Part shown: positions 2,279 through 60,687 of the stretch, piece by piece | Numbering within the stretch: the stretch's first letter is position 1 | Layout of the letters: each line of letters begins with the position of its first letter | NCBI GenBank assembly: GCA_913060815.1 | Contig: CAJXSZ010000002.1 | Coordinates: 310,001-374,000 of the forward strand | Direction of reading: 5' to 3' | From: an uncultured Sulfitobacter sp. | Lineage (GTDB): Bacteria > Pseudomonadota > Alphaproteobacteria > Rhodobacterales > Rhodobacteraceae | Length of the DNA stretch: 64,000 nucleotides | Notes under the pieces: generated by a model | What the model was told of the DNA's origin: nothing | Database searches by the model: none | What the model saw: the letters and a program-made list of their open reading frames with translations, nothing else | Program-made: the position numbers and the translations under genes

Positions 2279-3103
2279 TCAGCGTCGCGCGCTCCACGAT
2301 ATGCTTGCATGTTTGCGGGTGTAGAATTCGCCCATCAGTCCGATCATCACCAGCACCAGACCCACCCAGAAAGCATACATCGGATCGCTGTAGCGTGGAT
2401 TGTAGTTGATGAAAGAAAAGCCGCGTGACTGGTCAATCGTGTGGAACAGCGGGTTCCAGTCGAACATGGCCAACATGAAGCCCGGTAAGGTATTGGCCAC
2501 GAACATCTTGCCCGAAGCGATCATATTGGCGCGCTGGTAGATTGTGGAAAAGATGCCTACGGCGGTGGGAAACCATGGTTTGATCGCCAGCAGAACGAGG
2601 CCAAGCGCAGCCCCTGTGAACCACGCCAGCACAAGCATCGCAAATGCGCCAACGGGCTGGTCAATTTCCAGCGGTGTGAAGGCCACGTGGTAGACGAACA
2701 GGATAAGCACCAGCGACAGAATTTGAATATAGAGTGCCCCGAACGCGGCGGAGCAGATGGAGATAATGGTGTTCATCGGAGCGTGCTGCATCATCGGGCT
2801 TGCCGGTCCTTCGGACCCGACCACAGCACCGAGCGCCTTTGAGTGGGTCATGTAGAGGAAGATGCCTGTCATAATGTAGATCAGAAAATCACCGCGCACG
2901 GCAGCACCGCGCAGCCCGAGAATCGAGAACATTACATAGAACGCACCCACGAAGATGACAGCCTGAAGGATGTTCGTCGCGATCGCCAGAAAGGCATTGT
3001 TGTGGCTTTTGCGCACAGATCGGACGATGGAATGATAGATCAGTTCCAGCATCGACAAAACGATACTTAAGGTGGACCTGTGTGCTTGTTCCGGTTTGAA
3101 CAT
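2279..3103 (-). CDS. ABC-2 type polysaccharide export permease (KpsM-like)
   Basis: Inner-membrane permease of the ABC-2 class that exports capsule or O-antigen-type polysaccharides. The 274-residue sequence has about six hydrophobic segments (for instance around residues 45-70, 115-140, 145-175 and 240-260) and the KpsM-like organisation with a cytoplasmic N-terminus rich in basic residues. A partner ATPase (KpsT type) would normally be adjacent, but none is present in this window on either side, so the ATPase must be elsewhere. It lies between a YrbL-like gene and divergent cysQ. The exported substrate is not known. Confidence 0.82.
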   Translation of the reverse strand: MFKPEQAHRSTLSIVLSMLELIYHSIVRSVRKSHNNAFLAIATNILQAVIFVGAFYVMFSILGLRGAAVRGDFLIYIMTGIFLYMTHSKALGAVVGSEGPASPMMQHAPMNTIISICSAAFGALYIQILSLVLILFVYHVAFTPLEIDQPVGAFAMLVLAWFTGAALGLVLLAIKPWFPTAVGIFSTIYQRANMIASGKMFVANTLPGFMLAMFDWNPLFHTIDQSRGFSFINYNPRYSDPMYAFWVGLVLVMIGLMGEFYTRKHASISWSARR

Positions 3104-18212: not shown

Positions 18213-18298
18213 TGGTGCCCAGAAGAGGACTCGAACCTCCACACCGTTGCCAGTACTAGCACCTGAAGCTAGCGCGTCTACCATTCCGCCACCTGGGC
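18213..18298 (-). tRNA. tRNA-Leu (anticodon CAG)
   Basis: On the minus strand the sequence folds as a class II tRNA. The acceptor 5' GCCCAGG pairs with TCTGGGC followed by A and an encoded CCA. The anticodon stem CTAGC/GCTAG closes the loop TTCAGGT with anticodon CAG, a long variable arm follows, and GGTTCGAGTCC is the T loop. Length is 86 nt with CCA. The long variable arm and anticodon identify leucine. Confidence 0.97.
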
Positions 18299-40261: not shown

Positions 40262-41223
40262 GCCGCACCGAGTGGAACCATGCGCCAGAGGGGGCCATCG
40301 AAGTCTCGCCCCTGTGGCAATGGCCGCCACGCCCAGCGGCGGTGGCAAAATGGTACGCGGGTGCGTGGTTTCCACTGACGATCAATCTGTGCATTCTTGG
40401 GTTGGCATTTCTGAGTTGGGCGCTGTTTAGTCCTACCTTAGAGACTGCTTTAATGCTTGATTGGTGGATGGCGGGCATATGGTTGCGCAATGCGGCGATA
40501 ATAGCGCTGCTGGCGGGCGGGCTCCATTATTGGTTCCACGTGCGTGCCGCGCAAGGGACCGAGCTGAAGTATGACCCGCGCCCATTTCCGCGCCAAGGGC
40601 GGATGTTTTCATTCAGCGACCAGCTCAAGGACAACATGTTCTGGACCATCGCATCAGGTGTGACGGTCTGGAGCCTGTTTGAGGCGCTGGCTTGGTGGGG
40701 GATTGCCAACGACTGGCTGCCTAGCACCACATTCGCGCAGACACCTTTTTGGTTCATCGCCTTCTTTTTTCTGATCCCCGTGTGGGAGAGCTTCTATTTC
40801 TATTGGATACACCGGTTGCTCCACACCAATGCGCTTTACCACTTTCATGCGTTGCACCACCGGAACACCGATGTGGGTCCGTGGTCAGGTCTGTCGATGC
40901 ACCCCGTCGAGCATGTAATGTACTTCGGCACGGTGCTGATCCATCTGGTCGTGCCCAGTAGCCCTGTGCATGTGATTTTCCATTTGATGTTCTACGCGCT
41001 TCTTGCGGTGACCTCGCATACGGGGTTCGAAGGGCTTCGGATTGGCAATAAAAAGCGCGTGCATCTGGGGAATTTTCATCACCAGCTGCACCACCGCTAT
41101 TTCGAGGTGAACTACGGCAATCTGGATGTGCCGTGGGACAAGCTGTTCGGGTCGTTTCATGACGGGACGCAGGCCGGCAAAGAGATGATGCGCGAGCGAT
41201 TGAAGAGCAGGAAAAGAACATGA
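40258..41223 (+). CDS. Fatty acid hydroxylase / sterol desaturase family membrane protein
   Basis: Di-iron membrane oxygenase family protein, 321 residues, with four or so hydrophobic segments. The histidine clusters HRLLHTNALYHFHALHHRNTDVGPWS and FHHQLHHRYFEVNYGNLDVPWDKLFG are the metal ligands (HxxxH, HxxHH and HxxHH patterns). It is coupled by ATGA both to the aldolase gene before it and the acyl-CoA dehydrogenase after it. Lipid or sterol-like acceptor unknown. Confidence 0.85.
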   Translation: MSRTEWNHAPEGAIEVSPLWQWPPRPAAVAKWYAGAWFPLTINLCILGLAFLSWALFSPTLETALMLDWWMAGIWLRNAAIIALLAGGLHYWFHVRAAQGTELKYDPRPFPRQGRMFSFSDQLKDNMFWTIASGVTVWSLFEALAWWGIANDWLPSTTFAQTPFWFIAFFFLIPVWESFYFYWIHRLLHTNALYHFHALHHRNTDVGPWSGLSMHPVEHVMYFGTVLIHLVVPSSPVHVIFHLMFYALLAVTSHTGFEGLRIGNKKRVHLGNFHHQLHHRYFEVNYGNLDVPWDKLFGSFHDGTQAGKEMMRERLKSRKRT

Positions 41224-42380
41224 TTTACGGGCTGACCGAAGAACACACAATGATCGCCGACACAGTGCGCAGCTTTGTCGAGAAAGAGATTTATCCCCAT
41301 GAAGATCTGGTCGAGCGTACAGGCGAAGTGCCCCACGAAATCGCGCAGGAGATCAAGCAAAAGACGATTGATCTGGGGTTCTACGCCTGCAACTTTCCAG
41401 AAAGCGTCGGGTGCGCCGGGCTGAACCATCTGGAATTCGCGCTTGTCGAGCGGGAGTTAGGACGCGGGTCGATGGCGCTAAACCACTTCTTCGGGCGACC
41501 GCAAAACATCCTGATGGCTTGCGAAGGTGAGCAGATCGAGCGTTATCTCATGCCCGCTGTTCGTGGGGAGAGGATGGATGCGTTGGCCATGACAGAACCG
41601 GGTGCGGGTTCGGACGTGAGAGGCATGAAATGCAATGCCGTTCGCGATGGCGGCGATTGGGTTGTGAACGGGACTAAACACTTTATCTCCGGTGCAGACC
41701 ACGCGGATTTCATCATCGTCTTTATCGCCACGGGTGAGGATCAAACGCCTAAGGGGCCGAAAAAGCGGATTACCGCATTTCTCGTAGATCGCGGTACGCC
41801 AGGTTTTACGATCCGCGATGGCTACAAATCTGTGAGCCACCGTGGCTATAAGAATATGATCCTCGATTTTGATGACTGCCGTTTGCCTGATGCGCAAGTA
41901 TTGGGTGAGGTCGACAGTGGTTTTGACGTTATGAATACGTGGCTATACGCGACCCGCATCACCGTTGCGACGATGAGCGTAGGCCGCGCGCGCCGTGCGT
42001 TTGAATTCGCTTTGAACTATGCCGCCAAGCGAGAGCAATTCGGCCAGAAAATAGGGAAGTTTCAGGGTGTCTCGTTCCAGTTGGCTGATATGGTCACAGA
42101 GATCGATGCAGCGGATTTGCTGACCTTGGCAGCGGCGGATCGCTTGGACAAAGGCCTGCCTGCCAATCGTGAGATAGCCAGCGCCAAGCTTTATGCAAGT
42201 GAGATGCTATCGCGGGTCACGGATGCTGCCATTCAAGTGCACGGGGGCATGGGGCTGATGGATGACTTCCCTCTCGAGCGGTTCTGGCGCGACGCGCGTG
42301 TTGAGCGCATTTGGGACGGCACATCAGAGATACAGCGCCATATTATTAGTCGAGAAATGCTTCGGGCGTTGGATGCGTGA
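41220..42380 (+). CDS. Acyl-CoA dehydrogenase
   Basis: FAD enzyme that introduces the alpha-beta double bond into acyl-CoA, 386 residues. Seen are MTEPGAGSDVRGMKCNAVRDGGDWVVNGTKHFISGA (FAD/substrate region), ATMSVGRARRAFEFALNYAAKREQFGQKIGKFQG, and a C-terminal VHGGMGLMDDFPLERFWRDARVERIWDGTSEIQRHIISREML (quoted in part). A catalytic glutamate can be placed in the last region. It is coupled to the desaturase gene and followed after an intergenic repeat by an acyl-CoA synthetase, fitting acyl-CoA catabolism. Confidence 0.93.
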   Translation: MIYGLTEEHTMIADTVRSFVEKEIYPHEDLVERTGEVPHEIAQEIKQKTIDLGFYACNFPESVGCAGLNHLEFALVERELGRGSMALNHFFGRPQNILMACEGEQIERYLMPAVRGERMDALAMTEPGAGSDVRGMKCNAVRDGGDWVVNGTKHFISGADHADFIIVFIATGEDQTPKGPKKRITAFLVDRGTPGFTIRDGYKSVSHRGYKNMILDFDDCRLPDAQVLGEVDSGFDVMNTWLYATRITVATMSVGRARRAFEFALNYAAKREQFGQKIGKFQGVSFQLADMVTEIDAADLLTLAAADRLDKGLPANREIASAKLYASEMLSRVTDAAIQVHGGMGLMDDFPLERFWRDARVERIWDGTSEIQRHIISREMLRALDA

Positions 42381-42415: not shown

Positions 42416-42477
42416 GGGGGCCAGCCCCCAGTTGACCGAAGGCCAACTTCCCCCGGGATATTTCGGACCAAAAGAAA
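42416..42477 (+). repeat. Palindromic intergenic repeat, copy A
   Basis: The element reads GGGGGCCAGCCCCC, then an inner hairpin (agttgacc gaa ggccaact), then CCCCC, a GATATTT-like stretch and ACCAAAAGAAA. A second copy is at 59915-59975 in the opposite orientation. The inner hairpin sequence differs between copies but stays complementary, so its structure, not its sequence, appears kept. Confidence 0.7.
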
Positions 42478-42626
42478 CAGGGAAGCTCCGTTGAGAACTT
42501 CCCTGATCAAAACAGCATTGCTATTTCTTCTGGTACGGCCATCGGCGTCCCCGCCTGTACCGCAGGTTCAAACTTGCACAAACTTGGTTAAGAGTGGGTT
42601 ACTTCTTTTGGTTCAAAATATCCTCG
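42454..42626. repeat. Intergenic element bounded by near-perfect inverted repeats
   Basis: The left end (42454-42476, cgggatatttcggaccaaaa...) and right end (42603-42626, ...ttttggttcaaaatatcctcg) are inverted copies that match at about 20 of 24 positions. Between them are a hairpin agggaag/cttccct (42479-42504) and another around ggtac/gtacc (42532-42561). The 283-base gap has no credible gene. It could be a MITE-like or structured-RNA element, and may end transcription after the acyl-CoA dehydrogenase gene. Confidence 0.5.
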
Positions 42627-42663
42627 CCGAAGGCAAAACTCTCTTTCGTGCAGGGCAACCACA

Positions 42664-44691
42664 ATGAAGCCTGACTTGTTGCGTCTTTTGCGGCCAAAGT
42701 CGATTGCGATAATCGGTGGAGGTGCGTGGTGCGCTCAGATCATTCTGCAATCGCGGCGTATGAATTATACAGGCCGGATCGATGTTGTGCATCCGCGCGG
42801 TGCTGTAATCGAAGGTGTACAGTCGGTGACCGAGCTTGCCCGACTTCCTTCACCGCCAGATGCAGTCTTTATCGGGGTGAATAGGGTCGCGACGGTTGAT
42901 GCCGTCAGGTCATTGTCGGCGATGGGTGCCGGTGGTGCTGTCTGTTTTGCTTCTGGGTTTTCCGAGTCAGCAGCAGAAGACGAGACTGGAACGGATTTGC
43001 AAGCGGCGCTGGTTGCGGCGGCAGGTGATATGCCCGTCTTGGGCCCAAACTGCTATGGATTTATCAACGCTTTGGATGGAGCACTGTTGTGGCCTGATCA
43101 GCATGGTTGCGTTGCTGTGGAGCGGGGAGTCGCCATCCTGACACAGTCGTCCAATATCGCGATCAATCTGTCTATGCAGCAACGCGGCCTACCTATCGCC
43201 TATGTTGTGGCGTGCGGGAATATGGCGCAGACGTCGCAAGCGCGCATCGCTGCGGAGTTGCTGGACGATCCGCGTGTAACCGCGATCGGAATGCACATTG
43301 AAGGATTTGGTGATCTTTCTGAGTGGCATGCGCTGGCGCTTAAAGCACGGGCCAAGGGTGTGCCGCTCATTGCGCTTAAGGTAGGGCGCTCGGAACAAGC
43401 ACAACAGGCCGCCGTCTCTCATACCGCTTCGCTGGCAGGGAGTGATGCAGGCGCTCAGGCGCTGTTGGAGCGGTTGGGTATCGGGCGTGTGGACGATCTG
43501 CCAACCTTTATTGAAGCGCTGAAGCTGTTGCACATGGTTGGGACGTTGGACGCCCCGACCCTGTCTTCAATCAGTTGTTCAGGAGGCGAGGCGAGCCTTA
43601 TTGCCGATACAGCCGAAGGGTCTGGCATGGTTTTTCCAGAGCTAACCGACCCTCAGCGTGGCGCTTTAGGAGCAGCACTTGGGCCGATCGTGGCCTTGGG
43701 GAACCCGCTCGATTATCACACGTATGTCTGGCGCGATGTCGAGAGGATGACCGCCGCGTGGCTCCCGATGGCCGCAGAGCATATCGGGCTGACGATGATC
43801 ATTGTGGATTACCCGCACACGGACGCGACCGATTGGGTTTGTGCCACGCAGGCCGCTCTTGCTGTAAGAGCCCAAAGCGGGCGGCCTGTCGCGGTTGTTG
43901 CAACTTTGCCCGAGTTGATGCCTGCTGATGTGGCACAGGAGCTTATGGCGGGTGGTGTCATCCCCATGAGCGGGTTGACCGAAGCGATTGCCGCTGCTGC
44001 GGTAGCAGCGAAACTGCCGAACGTACAAGTCGAAAGCCTGCTTTTGCCCGGTGCGGATCGTGAAGGTGAACTGGTCAATGAAGCTGCGGCGAAGGCTGCA
44101 CTTTCGCGGGTCGGGCTGGTCGTGCCCAAGCGAGTAGAGGTCGAGGGCATTGCGCAGTTGGGGGCAGTGGCAAGGACACTTGAGGGGCCCTTGGTTCTGA
44201 AGGTCATGGGACTTGCGCATAAGTCCGAAGAAGGCGGTGTGCGCCTTGGGCTGACTGCTGACACGGTGGAAGAAGCGGCGCGTGATATGCCAGAGGGAGT
44301 GTATCTGCTTGAGGAGATGATACACGGCGCTGTGGCGGAATTACTCGTCGGGGTGCTTCGTGATCCTGCGCATGGGTTTGTTCTGACAATCGGGGCTGGC
44401 GGTGTGCTGACCGAGCTGTGGCAGGACACAGTATCTCTGCTGGTTCCTGCAGCTGAAAGCGCGGTGGAACGTGCTCTGCGGTCCTTGCGGATTTGGCCAT
44501 TAGTTGACGGGTATCGTGGGAAGCCCGCAGCGGACCTGACATCGATTATCGATGCGGTAATGGCCGTGCAGGCCTATGTCATTGCCAACGCGGACACGGT
44601 AAGTGAAATAGAGATTAACCCACTGATGTGTACGCCTGATGGCGCAGTTGCAGTGGATGCGTTGCTGCGTGAAGCGAAAAGGAGAGGCTGA
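42664..44691 (+). CDS. NDP-forming acyl-CoA synthetase (acetate--CoA ligase-like), fused subunits
   Basis: ADP-forming acyl-CoA synthetase in which alpha and beta units are one chain, 675 residues. The N-terminal CoA-binding domain has SIAIIGGGAWCAQII; the middle ligase domain carries the phosphohistidine in AAVSHTASLAGSDA (about residue 258); the C-terminal ATP-grasp domain has PLVLKVMGLAHKSEEGGVRLG and EIEINPLMC. It follows the acyl-CoA dehydrogenase gene and is one base from the hydratase gene. The acyl substrate is unknown. Confidence 0.87.
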   Translation: MKPDLLRLLRPKSIAIIGGGAWCAQIILQSRRMNYTGRIDVVHPRGAVIEGVQSVTELARLPSPPDAVFIGVNRVATVDAVRSLSAMGAGGAVCFASGFSESAAEDETGTDLQAALVAAAGDMPVLGPNCYGFINALDGALLWPDQHGCVAVERGVAILTQSSNIAINLSMQQRGLPIAYVVACGNMAQTSQARIAAELLDDPRVTAIGMHIEGFGDLSEWHALALKARAKGVPLIALKVGRSEQAQQAAVSHTASLAGSDAGAQALLERLGIGRVDDLPTFIEALKLLHMVGTLDAPTLSSISCSGGEASLIADTAEGSGMVFPELTDPQRGALGAALGPIVALGNPLDYHTYVWRDVERMTAAWLPMAAEHIGLTMIIVDYPHTDATDWVCATQAALAVRAQSGRPVAVVATLPELMPADVAQELMAGGVIPMSGLTEAIAAAAVAAKLPNVQVESLLLPGADREGELVNEAAAKAALSRVGLVVPKRVEVEGIAQLGAVARTLEGPLVLKVMGLAHKSEEGGVRLGLTADTVEEAARDMPEGVYLLEEMIHGAVAELLVGVLRDPAHGFVLTIGAGGVLTELWQDTVSLLVPAAESAVERALRSLRIWPLVDGYRGKPAADLTSIIDAVMAVQAYVIANADTVSEIEINPLMCTPDGAVAVDALLREAKRRG

Positions 44692-59914: not shown

Positions 59915-59975
59915 TTTCTTTTGGTCAATAAGTATCTCGGGGGAATCGGCCTTTGGCCGATGGGGGCTGGCCCCC
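59915..59975 (-). repeat. Palindromic intergenic repeat, copy B
   Basis: Same element as copy A at 42416-42477, on the opposite strand. From its left end on the minus strand: GGGGGCCAGCCCCC, a perfect inner hairpin (atcggcc aaa ggccgat), CCCCC, then a diverged stretch and GACCAAAAGAAA. It lies between petR and xseB. Confidence 0.7.
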
Positions 59976-59985
59976 TGCCAGCAGA

Positions 59986-60687
59986 TCAATCAGGTGTCAG
60001 CATATACCCTGCACCGCGTACCGTCTGCAAATAGCGAGGCTGCTTCGGATCGGCTTCGATTTTGCGGCGCAGGCGCGTAATCTGCACATCCACGGCGCGC
60101 TCCTGCGCCTGCCCCCGATCGCGGCCTAATTCCTCAACCAGATTAGACCGGCTCAACGCTTCGCCCGGTTTGGCGGAGAAGATCTTCATCAACTGGATTT
60201 CGGTCGCTGTGAGGCGGACAAGTTCGTCACCTTCCCACATCTCGCCGCGTTCCATGTCATAACGGATAGGTCCGAGGCTAAGTACTTTGGGTGCGACATC
60301 AGGGGTCTCGACGTCGGGCATCCTGCGCAGAATTGCATTGATCCGCAGCAACAGTTCTTTAGGCTCGAATGGTTTGGCGAGATAATCATCTGCCCCCGCT
60401 TCCAGTCCCTCGATACGGTTGTCCGTCTCGCCTTTGGCCGTCAGCAAAAGGATCGGGGTTTTCATCGTTTCGCACAGCGCGCGGGTCAGGCTAAGCCCGT
60501 CTTCACCCGGCATCATCACATCAAGAATGATCATATCGAATTCAAGACCCGATAGCACACGCCGCGCATGAGCTGCATCACGTGCTGCCGTAACCAGAAA
60601 CCCGTGCCGCAATAGAAATTTCTGGAGCAGCGTCCGGATACGCTCGTCATCATCAACGATAAGCAGATGGGCATCAGGAGTGCTCAT
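59986..60687 (-). CDS. petR: OmpR-type response regulator (PetR-like)
   Basis: Two-component DNA-binding response regulator, 233 residues. Receiver domain: acidic pocket VDDDE (about 11-15), phospho-acceptor Asp56 in MIILDVMMPGEDG, conserved LLTAK and AKPF (Lys105). Winged-helix domain: RLTATEIQLMKIF and RRKIEADPKQPRYLQTVRGAGYML. The overlap with the MarR-type gene and ilvE as divergent neighbour match the PetP-PetR pair known in Rhodobacter. No histidine kinase is present in the window. Confidence 0.82.
   Translation of the reverse strand: MSTPDAHLLIVDDDERIRTLLQKFLLRHGFLVTAARDAAHARRVLSGLEFDMIILDVMMPGEDGLSLTRALCETMKTPILLLTAKGETDNRIEGLEAGADDYLAKPFEPKELLLRINAILRRMPDVETPDVAPKVLSLGPIRYDMERGEMWEGDELVRLTATEIQLMKIFSAKPGEALSRSNLVEELGRDRGQAQERAVDVQITRLRRKIEADPKQPRYLQTVRGAGYMLTPD

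Follow-up and report, generated by a model that had tools for sequence, protein, structure and literature searches.

A Dispersed Gene-End Repeat Often Holding Three Stretches Matched as Expected of a Three-Stranded DNA Helix

Introduction

Here we describe a short palindromic repeat, dispersed between genes, in which three stretches often match one another as they would in a three-stranded DNA helix. From sequence comparison this suggests that evolution is maintaining a triple helix at gene ends. Two copies lie in the window—the whole stretch of 64,000 nucleotides analysed here—at 42416-42477 on the forward strand (copy A) and 59975-59915 on the reverse strand (copy B), both just where an earlier note on this DNA had placed them. 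We think it somewhat probable that the repeat is a gene-end element with an intrastrand triplex-forming hairpin core, often retained at the corresponding sites of congeners. A bolder proposal is possible, though doubtful: that a DNA triple helix at gene ends is naturally selected across the family and, together with a sequence-specific factor reading the tail, would form an orientation-independent boundary between genes.

The relevance of intrastrand DNA triplexes in living bacteria has been in question since PIT elements were described; in the portion of PMC4666352 drawn on here, PIT oligonucleotides fold, but neither footprints in vivo nor reporters lent support. The three strands have changed together in many genera and in a few ortholog pairs, and we take this as evidence from evolution that the third strand matters. 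Natural variants of the element could allow the triplex rule to be broken and restored, and the conserved tail could serve as bait for a reader protein.

Architecture of the Element

A full copy runs in the order hairpin 1 (purine arm, loop, pyrimidine arm), linker, pyrimidine tract, GGGATATTT box and tail (nnGRCCAAAAGAAA). In type I copies the linker between hairpin 1 and the tract is a short spacer of few bases; in type II copies, which include A and B, it is a second hairpin. Covariance models were built as the earlier note had proposed: R1, the type II model, from 25 copies, and R2, the type I model. That note had staked its claim on further copies and on excess covariation across genomes, and both were found.

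The source genome (3.51 Mb, 45 contigs) gives 44 R1 matches at E<=0.01 and 50 at E<=1. A whole-genome search for the framing motif found 13 exact copies of GGGGGCCAGCCCCC and 0 in the reversed control, and the tail CCCGGGATATTTNNNRCCAAAAGAA with at most three mismatches matches 41 places, again with 0 in the reversed control; copy B, which has one extra tail base, is not among the 41 and was recovered by the GGGGGCCAGCCCCC and R1 searches. Three of the tail matches stand without hairpin 1 (L074, L075 and window positions 42627-42603). Rfam returned no family for the repeat copies of the whole window at the gathering score, nor for five loci of the source genome at a relaxed threshold. Elsewhere in the window, Rfam matches comprise Cis2_sRNA, a Ruegeria sRNA family (2384-2536, forward strand; RF02645, 111 bits), and a tRNA gene (18216-18298, reverse strand; 52 bits). 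A third small hairpin before TATTT (CTCC-CCC-GGAG), judged by eye, is present in some genera and broken in others, and was dropped.

In copy A, hairpin 1 (42416..42429; one of the 13 exact copies) is formed by GGGGG (42416-42420), the loop CCAG and CCCCC (42425-42429). Hairpin 2 follows as the type II linker (42430..42448; AGTTGACC-GAA-GGCCAACT), then the tract CCCCC (42450..42454), a candidate third strand with five C against the five G of the hairpin-1 arm, and the GGGATATTT box with the tail nnGACCAAAAGAAA (42455..42477), all on the forward strand. On the reverse strand, copy B has hairpin 1 (GGGGG-CCAG-CCCCC, 59962..59975), hairpin 2 (ATCGGCC-AAA-GGCCGAT, 59945..59961), its own candidate third strand CCCCC (59939..59943), and the box and tail GAGATACTTATTGACCAAAAGAAA (59915..59938). 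The earlier note had described the inner stems of both copies as paired; this holds throughout for copy B and for 7 of 8 positions in copy A, where one A-C mismatch interrupts the stem.

The acyl-CoA dehydrogenase gene at 41220..42380 (forward strand, by Pfam) ends 35 nt before copy A. Past the copy, a tail directed at it, with a small hairpin only, lies on the reverse strand at 42603..42627; the tail search found it, and it is absent from the earlier note. Its counterpart in the congener G159 (L162), which retains both tails, carries the other species' tail letters. In the congener G182 (L149, 2040-2090) the DNA between the two tails is seemingly gone and the tails run into each other, which is how the site would look after deletion of a palindrome. 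Directly after copy A stands a terminator-like hairpin of 12 pairs (42478..42505, reverse strand), with the tail complement TTTCTTTTGG as its T tract. Downstream of copy A and the facing tail is a forward-strand gene for a CoA-binding, succinyl-CoA-ligase-like, ATP-grasp protein (42664..44691; Pfam, with the start from a home-made gene call). Copy B follows by 10 nt the stop of a reverse-strand gene from the list of open reading frames (59986..60687), which we take to be response-regulator-like from its translation.

Distribution Across Genomes

The element is spread through a family that we take, from the named loci, to be Rhodobacteraceae. R1 matches 113 of 149 family genomes at E<=0.01 (up to 35 candidates scored per genome), and R2, in the search of related genomes that the earlier note had suggested, 222 of 295 at E<=0.001 (up to 20 candidates per genome). 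Within the genus, 34 of 38 genomes match, the source genome included, with 0 to 49 copies per genome; the sites are not fixed, and we count this against the explanation that we prefer. Of 385 genomes sampled across the class, 8 match at E<=1e-4, and four of these belong to other families. At the loci L449, L450, L452 and L454 of other families the hairpin is kept with a 3-nt spacer, a C tract and a box like GGGATATTT, but the tail is incomplete; the core of the element may therefore be older than its tail.

A pattern scan of GTDB found at least 80 loci; among the matches listed, 77 titles name Rhodobacteraceae or a genus belonging to it, and three name only Alphaproteobacteria. Plasmids carry the element too: 34 records match at E<=1, including Ruegeria, Leisingera, Salipiger, Antarctobacter and Paracoccus, with three E. 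coli records (37 of 59 letters matching) at the weak end. Ruegeria pomeroyi is a cultured host.

Covariation of the Second Hairpin

The letters of hairpin 2 change while its pairing is kept. The spacer is of usable length in 184 of the 205 type II copies. In 162 of these it contains a perfectly paired stem of at least 5 bp, whereas shuffled spacers do so in 6.3% of cases (highest 10.3%), and the stems use 106 distinct 5' arms. When 88 distinct rows from named genomes are aligned, covariation scores 0.166, against 0.056 for shuffled and 0.010-0.053 for slid alignments—the rows were fitted to the model, which favours the score. Cells with change on both sides number 68 against 22.8 in shuffles. 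Counted as pairs, changes on both sides show no excess (6 against 5.7 shuffled, with 343 of 500 shuffles reaching 6), and at the base of hairpin 2 (helix 2) pairing reaches only 49.3% in these rows. Hairpin 1 hardly varies in this alignment, which is thus uninformative about it; variation in hairpin 1 is found in type I copies.

Comparison of orthologous sites points the same way. Of the 18 type II ortholog pairs, 16 could be parsed by script on both sides; the hairpin-2 arms differ in every one of the 16, and each member keeps at least five pairs with at most one mismatch. The copy A site is an example, as its counterparts in two congeners (L149, L162) have other letters than copy A and keep the pairing. 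The covariation that the earlier note had read from two copies thus finds support in hairpin 2. In the pair L145/L040 hairpin 2 differs by eye. The stem of L137/L054 is mostly common to the two, with GAAGCC against GCAGCC, and the change breaks a pair, which on these letters is evidence against fast replacement of hairpin 2 at that site. An arm-exchange count for type II hairpin 2 was tautological and was discarded.

A Candidate Third Strand in Parallel Register

In type I copies the purine arm of hairpin 1 and the tract that precedes GGGATATTT have one pattern in common: arm and tract read GGGG/CCCC, GGGGG/CCCCC, GGGGGG/CCCCCC, GAGGGG/CTCCCC, GGAGGG/CCTCCC, GGGAGG/CCCTCC, GAGAGG/CTCTCC or GAAGGG/CTTCCC. 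The relation is parallel—the tract is the parallel complement of the purine arm and the mirror of the 3' arm, in letters and in length. Watson-Crick pairing gives no parallel letter match and a triple helix does. The earlier note had counted GGGGG and CCCCC as an outer stem; for homopolymers such a Watson-Crick stem is possible, but as a rule for type I we reject it because most mixed tracts fit only in parallel, and a third strand explains the tract better.

For the counts we took copies with a perfect hairpin 1, a canonical loop and a purine arm (n=117). Each T in the tract tends to be accompanied by an A at equal distance in the arm, counting from box and loop respectively, with phi of 0.94, 0.88 and 0.82 at positions 3, 4 and 5; other values in these rows lie within +-0.18. 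Arm and tract have runs of equal length in 103 of 117 copies, where shuffling gives a mean of 27.8 and at most 47. The informative copies number 75; a 5/5 parallel match is seen in 44 of them (after shuffling, a mean of 7.5 and at most 16) and an antiparallel one in nine, all nine of which also match in parallel. A gap of exactly 3 nt separates the pyrimidine halves in 98 of the 117 copies. All these copies are related by descent, and the counts are not independent.

The 117 include 24 copies found by selecting on the tract, in a search that led from 80 places to 45 loci and these 24 (the rest being type II, duplicates or without hairpin 1). Without them (n=93) there are 24 same-position T/A pairs, where 5000 permutations give a mean of 3.75 and a highest value of 11, and among 29 informative copies 19 match 5/5 in parallel and one in antiparallel. 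In the tract-selected copies themselves, A stands at the same position in 15 of 16 cases at position 3 and in 7 of 7 at position 4. Opposite the 57 arm A's are T in 47, A in 7, C in 2 and G in 1, with T inflated by the tract-selected copies.

Between orthologs, three strands have changed together from GGGG/CCCC to GGGGG/CCCCC (L041 against L148 and L163) and from GAGGGG/CTCCCC to GAAGGG/CTTCCC (L038 against L164). The rule has exceptions: L306, L309, L316 and L395 break it, and in the pair L051 (GAGGGG/CACCCC) and L166 (GAAGGG/CTACCC) there is no clean match. Matched triplets are few, with 4-6 in 98 of 117 copies. Type I has the third tract mirror to, or parallel with, the duplex purine arm that defines PIT and ITxF sequences. 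The element lies outside the limits of ITxF searches (stem 6-15 nt, loops 1-6 nt); 35 of 117 type I copies, those with at least six matched triplets, reach the stem limit, and copies A and B have five triplets and 18-20 nt between pyrimidine tracts.

Type II copies show a weak agreement in run length (147 of 205; shuffled mean 120, highest 134) and no letter signal: 8 of 36 informative copies match, against a shuffled mean of 8.5, and several tract-chosen copies (L375, L381, L387) break the rule. In copies A and B arm and tract agree in length only (5 and 5), and the third-strand rule is carried over to them from their type I relatives; since type II lacks the letter signal, a triplex at A and B is no more than possible. 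One hint, a further joint change of all three strands, comes from the copy A site, where the congener L149 has GGGGGA as hairpin-1 arm and CCCCCT as tract in place of GGGGG/CCCCC.

Gene Context and the Question of DNA or RNA

The element sits at gene ends. Of 118 placed copies, 53 lie between convergent genes, 31 and 26 between codirectional genes in the two orientations, and 8 between divergent genes. Own and named copies give, respectively, 17+33 convergent, 12+19 codirectional where copy and upstream gene share a strand, 7+15 in reverse and 4+4 divergent; to these come 3 convergent and 4 reverse codirectional copies from seven annotated plasmid regions. Among gaps of at least 45 nt in forty 20-kb samples of two genomes, 12.6% are convergent, 26.4% divergent and 61% codirectional. 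In the source genome, 13 of 17 convergent copies have the opposing stop 5-9 nt beyond the tail; in the named loci an opposing downstream gene is less tightly spaced (at most 13 nt away in 22 of 50). Gene calls are home-made except in the seven annotated plasmid regions, whose gene table is incomplete. The own set places 40 of 41 tail matches (one lies inside a called ORF), with three hairpin-poor tails included and copy B absent; the named set places 71 of 90, with 13 inside a called ORF and 6 dropped for having one neighbour.

Such a location could also suit an RNA element, in which paired hairpins at the 3' ends of mRNAs act as terminators or barriers to 3' exonucleases, and the three-strand match would be a pyrimidine-motif RNA triplex; both strands of a palindrome can fold. 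The position close behind stop codons, the convergent enrichment and the few divergent gaps agree with this, as do the 37 of 321 copies in which a further hairpin follows the tail (at least 6 bp, starting at most 6 nt away; 5.4% in shuffles), with the tail complement as a possible T tract, as at 42505-42478. Ordinary terminator-like hairpins also adjoin L048, L069 and L075. Against it, hairpin 1 of the 321 copies is not followed directly by the T tract of an intrinsic terminator: the mean number of T in 8 nt is 1.17 on the top and 1.71 on the bottom strand (background 1.51), and at least five T occur in 0 (top) and 13 (bottom) copies. We therefore reject a canonical terminator at hairpin 1, and no terminator was called at hairpins 1 and 2 of copies A and B. 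The two codirectional orientations, 31 and 26, are likewise unexpected of a signal specific to the RNA strand.

The triplet chemistry bears on the same choice. The top strand would use the pyrimidine motif, whose runs of C+·G-C triplets favour acid; the bottom DNA strand, with the same letters, would use the purine motif (G·G-C, A·A-T), which needs no acid. According to the part of PMC4666352 used here, the purine motif permits T or A opposite A and is impossible in RNA, and the pyrimidine motif permits T only; the A opposite A in 7 of 57 cases does not fit the latter. The earlier note had left its "RNA or DNA structure" undivided. Because A stands opposite A in some copies and the element has no orientation preference, the evidence, indirect and small in number, favours a DNA form, and we regard an RNA element as unlikely.

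Site Retention and the Tail

Sites are often shared between species. We fetched 16 of 21 matches in G182 and 16 of 24 in G159; in each, 12 of the 16 have a counterpart to an own copy by flanking genes, copy A being among them in both. The resulting 24 ortholog pairs represent 21 distinct own copies, and the type, judged by eye, is kept in 24 of 24 (6 type I, 18 type II).

This retention, with hairpins diverged, speaks against a non-autonomous mobile repeat of the REP/BIME kind, dispersed by a transposase and kept where harmless. The copies are dispersed, their number varies from 0 to 49 within the genus, and some form tail-to-tail inverted pairs (L207, L201, L222, L247; three in G223 and G305), all as such a repeat would have it. 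However, the own genome has 0 matches to a Y1 (RAYT-type) transposase, which in the family occurs in 15 of 149 genomes—11 of 113 with the element and 4 of 36 without—and copying does not yield mirror relations. We reject the RAYT link, as the own genome has no cognate Y1 transposase and the family few, and hold this origin to be rather improbable. As to the inverted pairs themselves, the members lie 8 nt apart in L207 (2228-2354) and 12 nt apart in L201 (1847-1957), further pairs occur in L093, L378 and L277, and the tail letters of two members are alike by eye.

Within one genome the tails are almost alike, and from species to species they vary: immediately before CCAAAA, 22 of the 24 own members carry A and two carry C, and every one of the 24 counterparts carries G. 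Since the arms are mostly private to a site and the tail is common to the genome, a trans-acting reader of the tail would fit better than gene conversion. A uniform, species-specific tail is also what a chromosome signal for uptake, packaging or segregation would show, read by a sequence-specific protein and placed at gene ends as the sites of least harm. We give this a slim chance, as an uptake signal would be expected in more copies than one per about 80 kb, and no clear polarity was seen by eye along two chromosomes. A replication polarity was tried and rejected: by eye there is a mild excess on a GC-skew arm in G223 and G305, among the matches listed, with gene strand bias unseparated. Least probable of all is mutational bias only, with template switching perfecting palindromes that persist without selection: correction of palindromes would account for hairpin-2 letters that are replaced fast yet stay paired, and the stretch between facing tails in G182 was apparently deleted, but template switching gives inverted or direct repeats, not a parallel (mirror) third strand, and leaves the conserved tail and gene-end location unexplained.

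Proposed Structure and Function

In the gene-end triplex element that we prefer, hairpin 1 would give a Watson-Crick stem of purine arm and pyrimidine arm, and the pyrimidine tract would lie against it as a third strand in parallel register, joined by 3 nt in type I and by the second hairpin in type II, as in copies A and B. The triplex would presumably form as DNA while the strand is single, type II using it too, and a trans-acting factor would probably read the tail. Location and retention suggest that the element could be a gene-end boundary in both orientations, which would stop or trim read-through between neighbours, convergent ones above all. We word this function with caution because related motifs in E. 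coli lack terminator activity: in the part of PMC4666352 considered here, PIT/TMECO motifs have neither promoter nor terminator activity, and in vivo DMS footprints gave no support for a stable triplex at them.

Comparison with Known Systems

Among known systems, the dialects of the Neisseria DNA uptake sequence—a conserved word in a species-wide form, often near gene ends—resemble the element in its species-specific tail word and gene-end position. Uptake sequences number hundreds to thousands of copies, thousands in Neisseria, against about 44 matches in 3.5 Mb here, and we do not place the element among them. REP/BIME repeats with RAYT are likewise dispersed extragenic palindromes with inverted pairs at gene ends; the element differs in its third-strand relation, its retained orthologous sites and an own genome without Y1 transposase. 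H-DNA mirror repeats share the mirror-symmetric pyrimidine halves, with a 3-nt centre in the 98 of 117 type I copies; in contrast, the extra purine arm of the element would let one strand fold alone, and its tracts are short.

The closest likeness is to the PIT/BoxC/TMECO repeats, as far as they are described in the part of PMC4666352 consulted. They too hold purine, pyrimidine and mirror-related third tracts on one strand; they are GC-rich and intergenic, number in the tens per genome, show no preferred orientation, include inverted pairs and differ strongly in copy number between relatives. The domain order differs, however: the element reads purine, pyrimidine, third strand on the top strand and third strand, purine, pyrimidine on the bottom, and TMECO reads pyrimidine, purine, purine. 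Copies read by eye accordingly do not follow the TMECO/BoxC pattern (CCCTCNCCC-N3-6-GGGNGAGGG-N3-GGGNGAGGG). The element also has mostly 4-6 triplets against 9, lies at gene ends where TMECO is more often upstream of ORFs, and adds a conserved box and tail, a second-hairpin linker and three-strand covariation. The main text of PMC4666352 does not mention Rhodobacter, Roseobacter or Ruegeria, and in the titles and abstract openings listed, from a literature with few subscription journals covered, we did not recognise the repeat as described. It is best filed as a variant, apparently undescribed, of the bacterial intrastrand-triplex (PIT) repeats.
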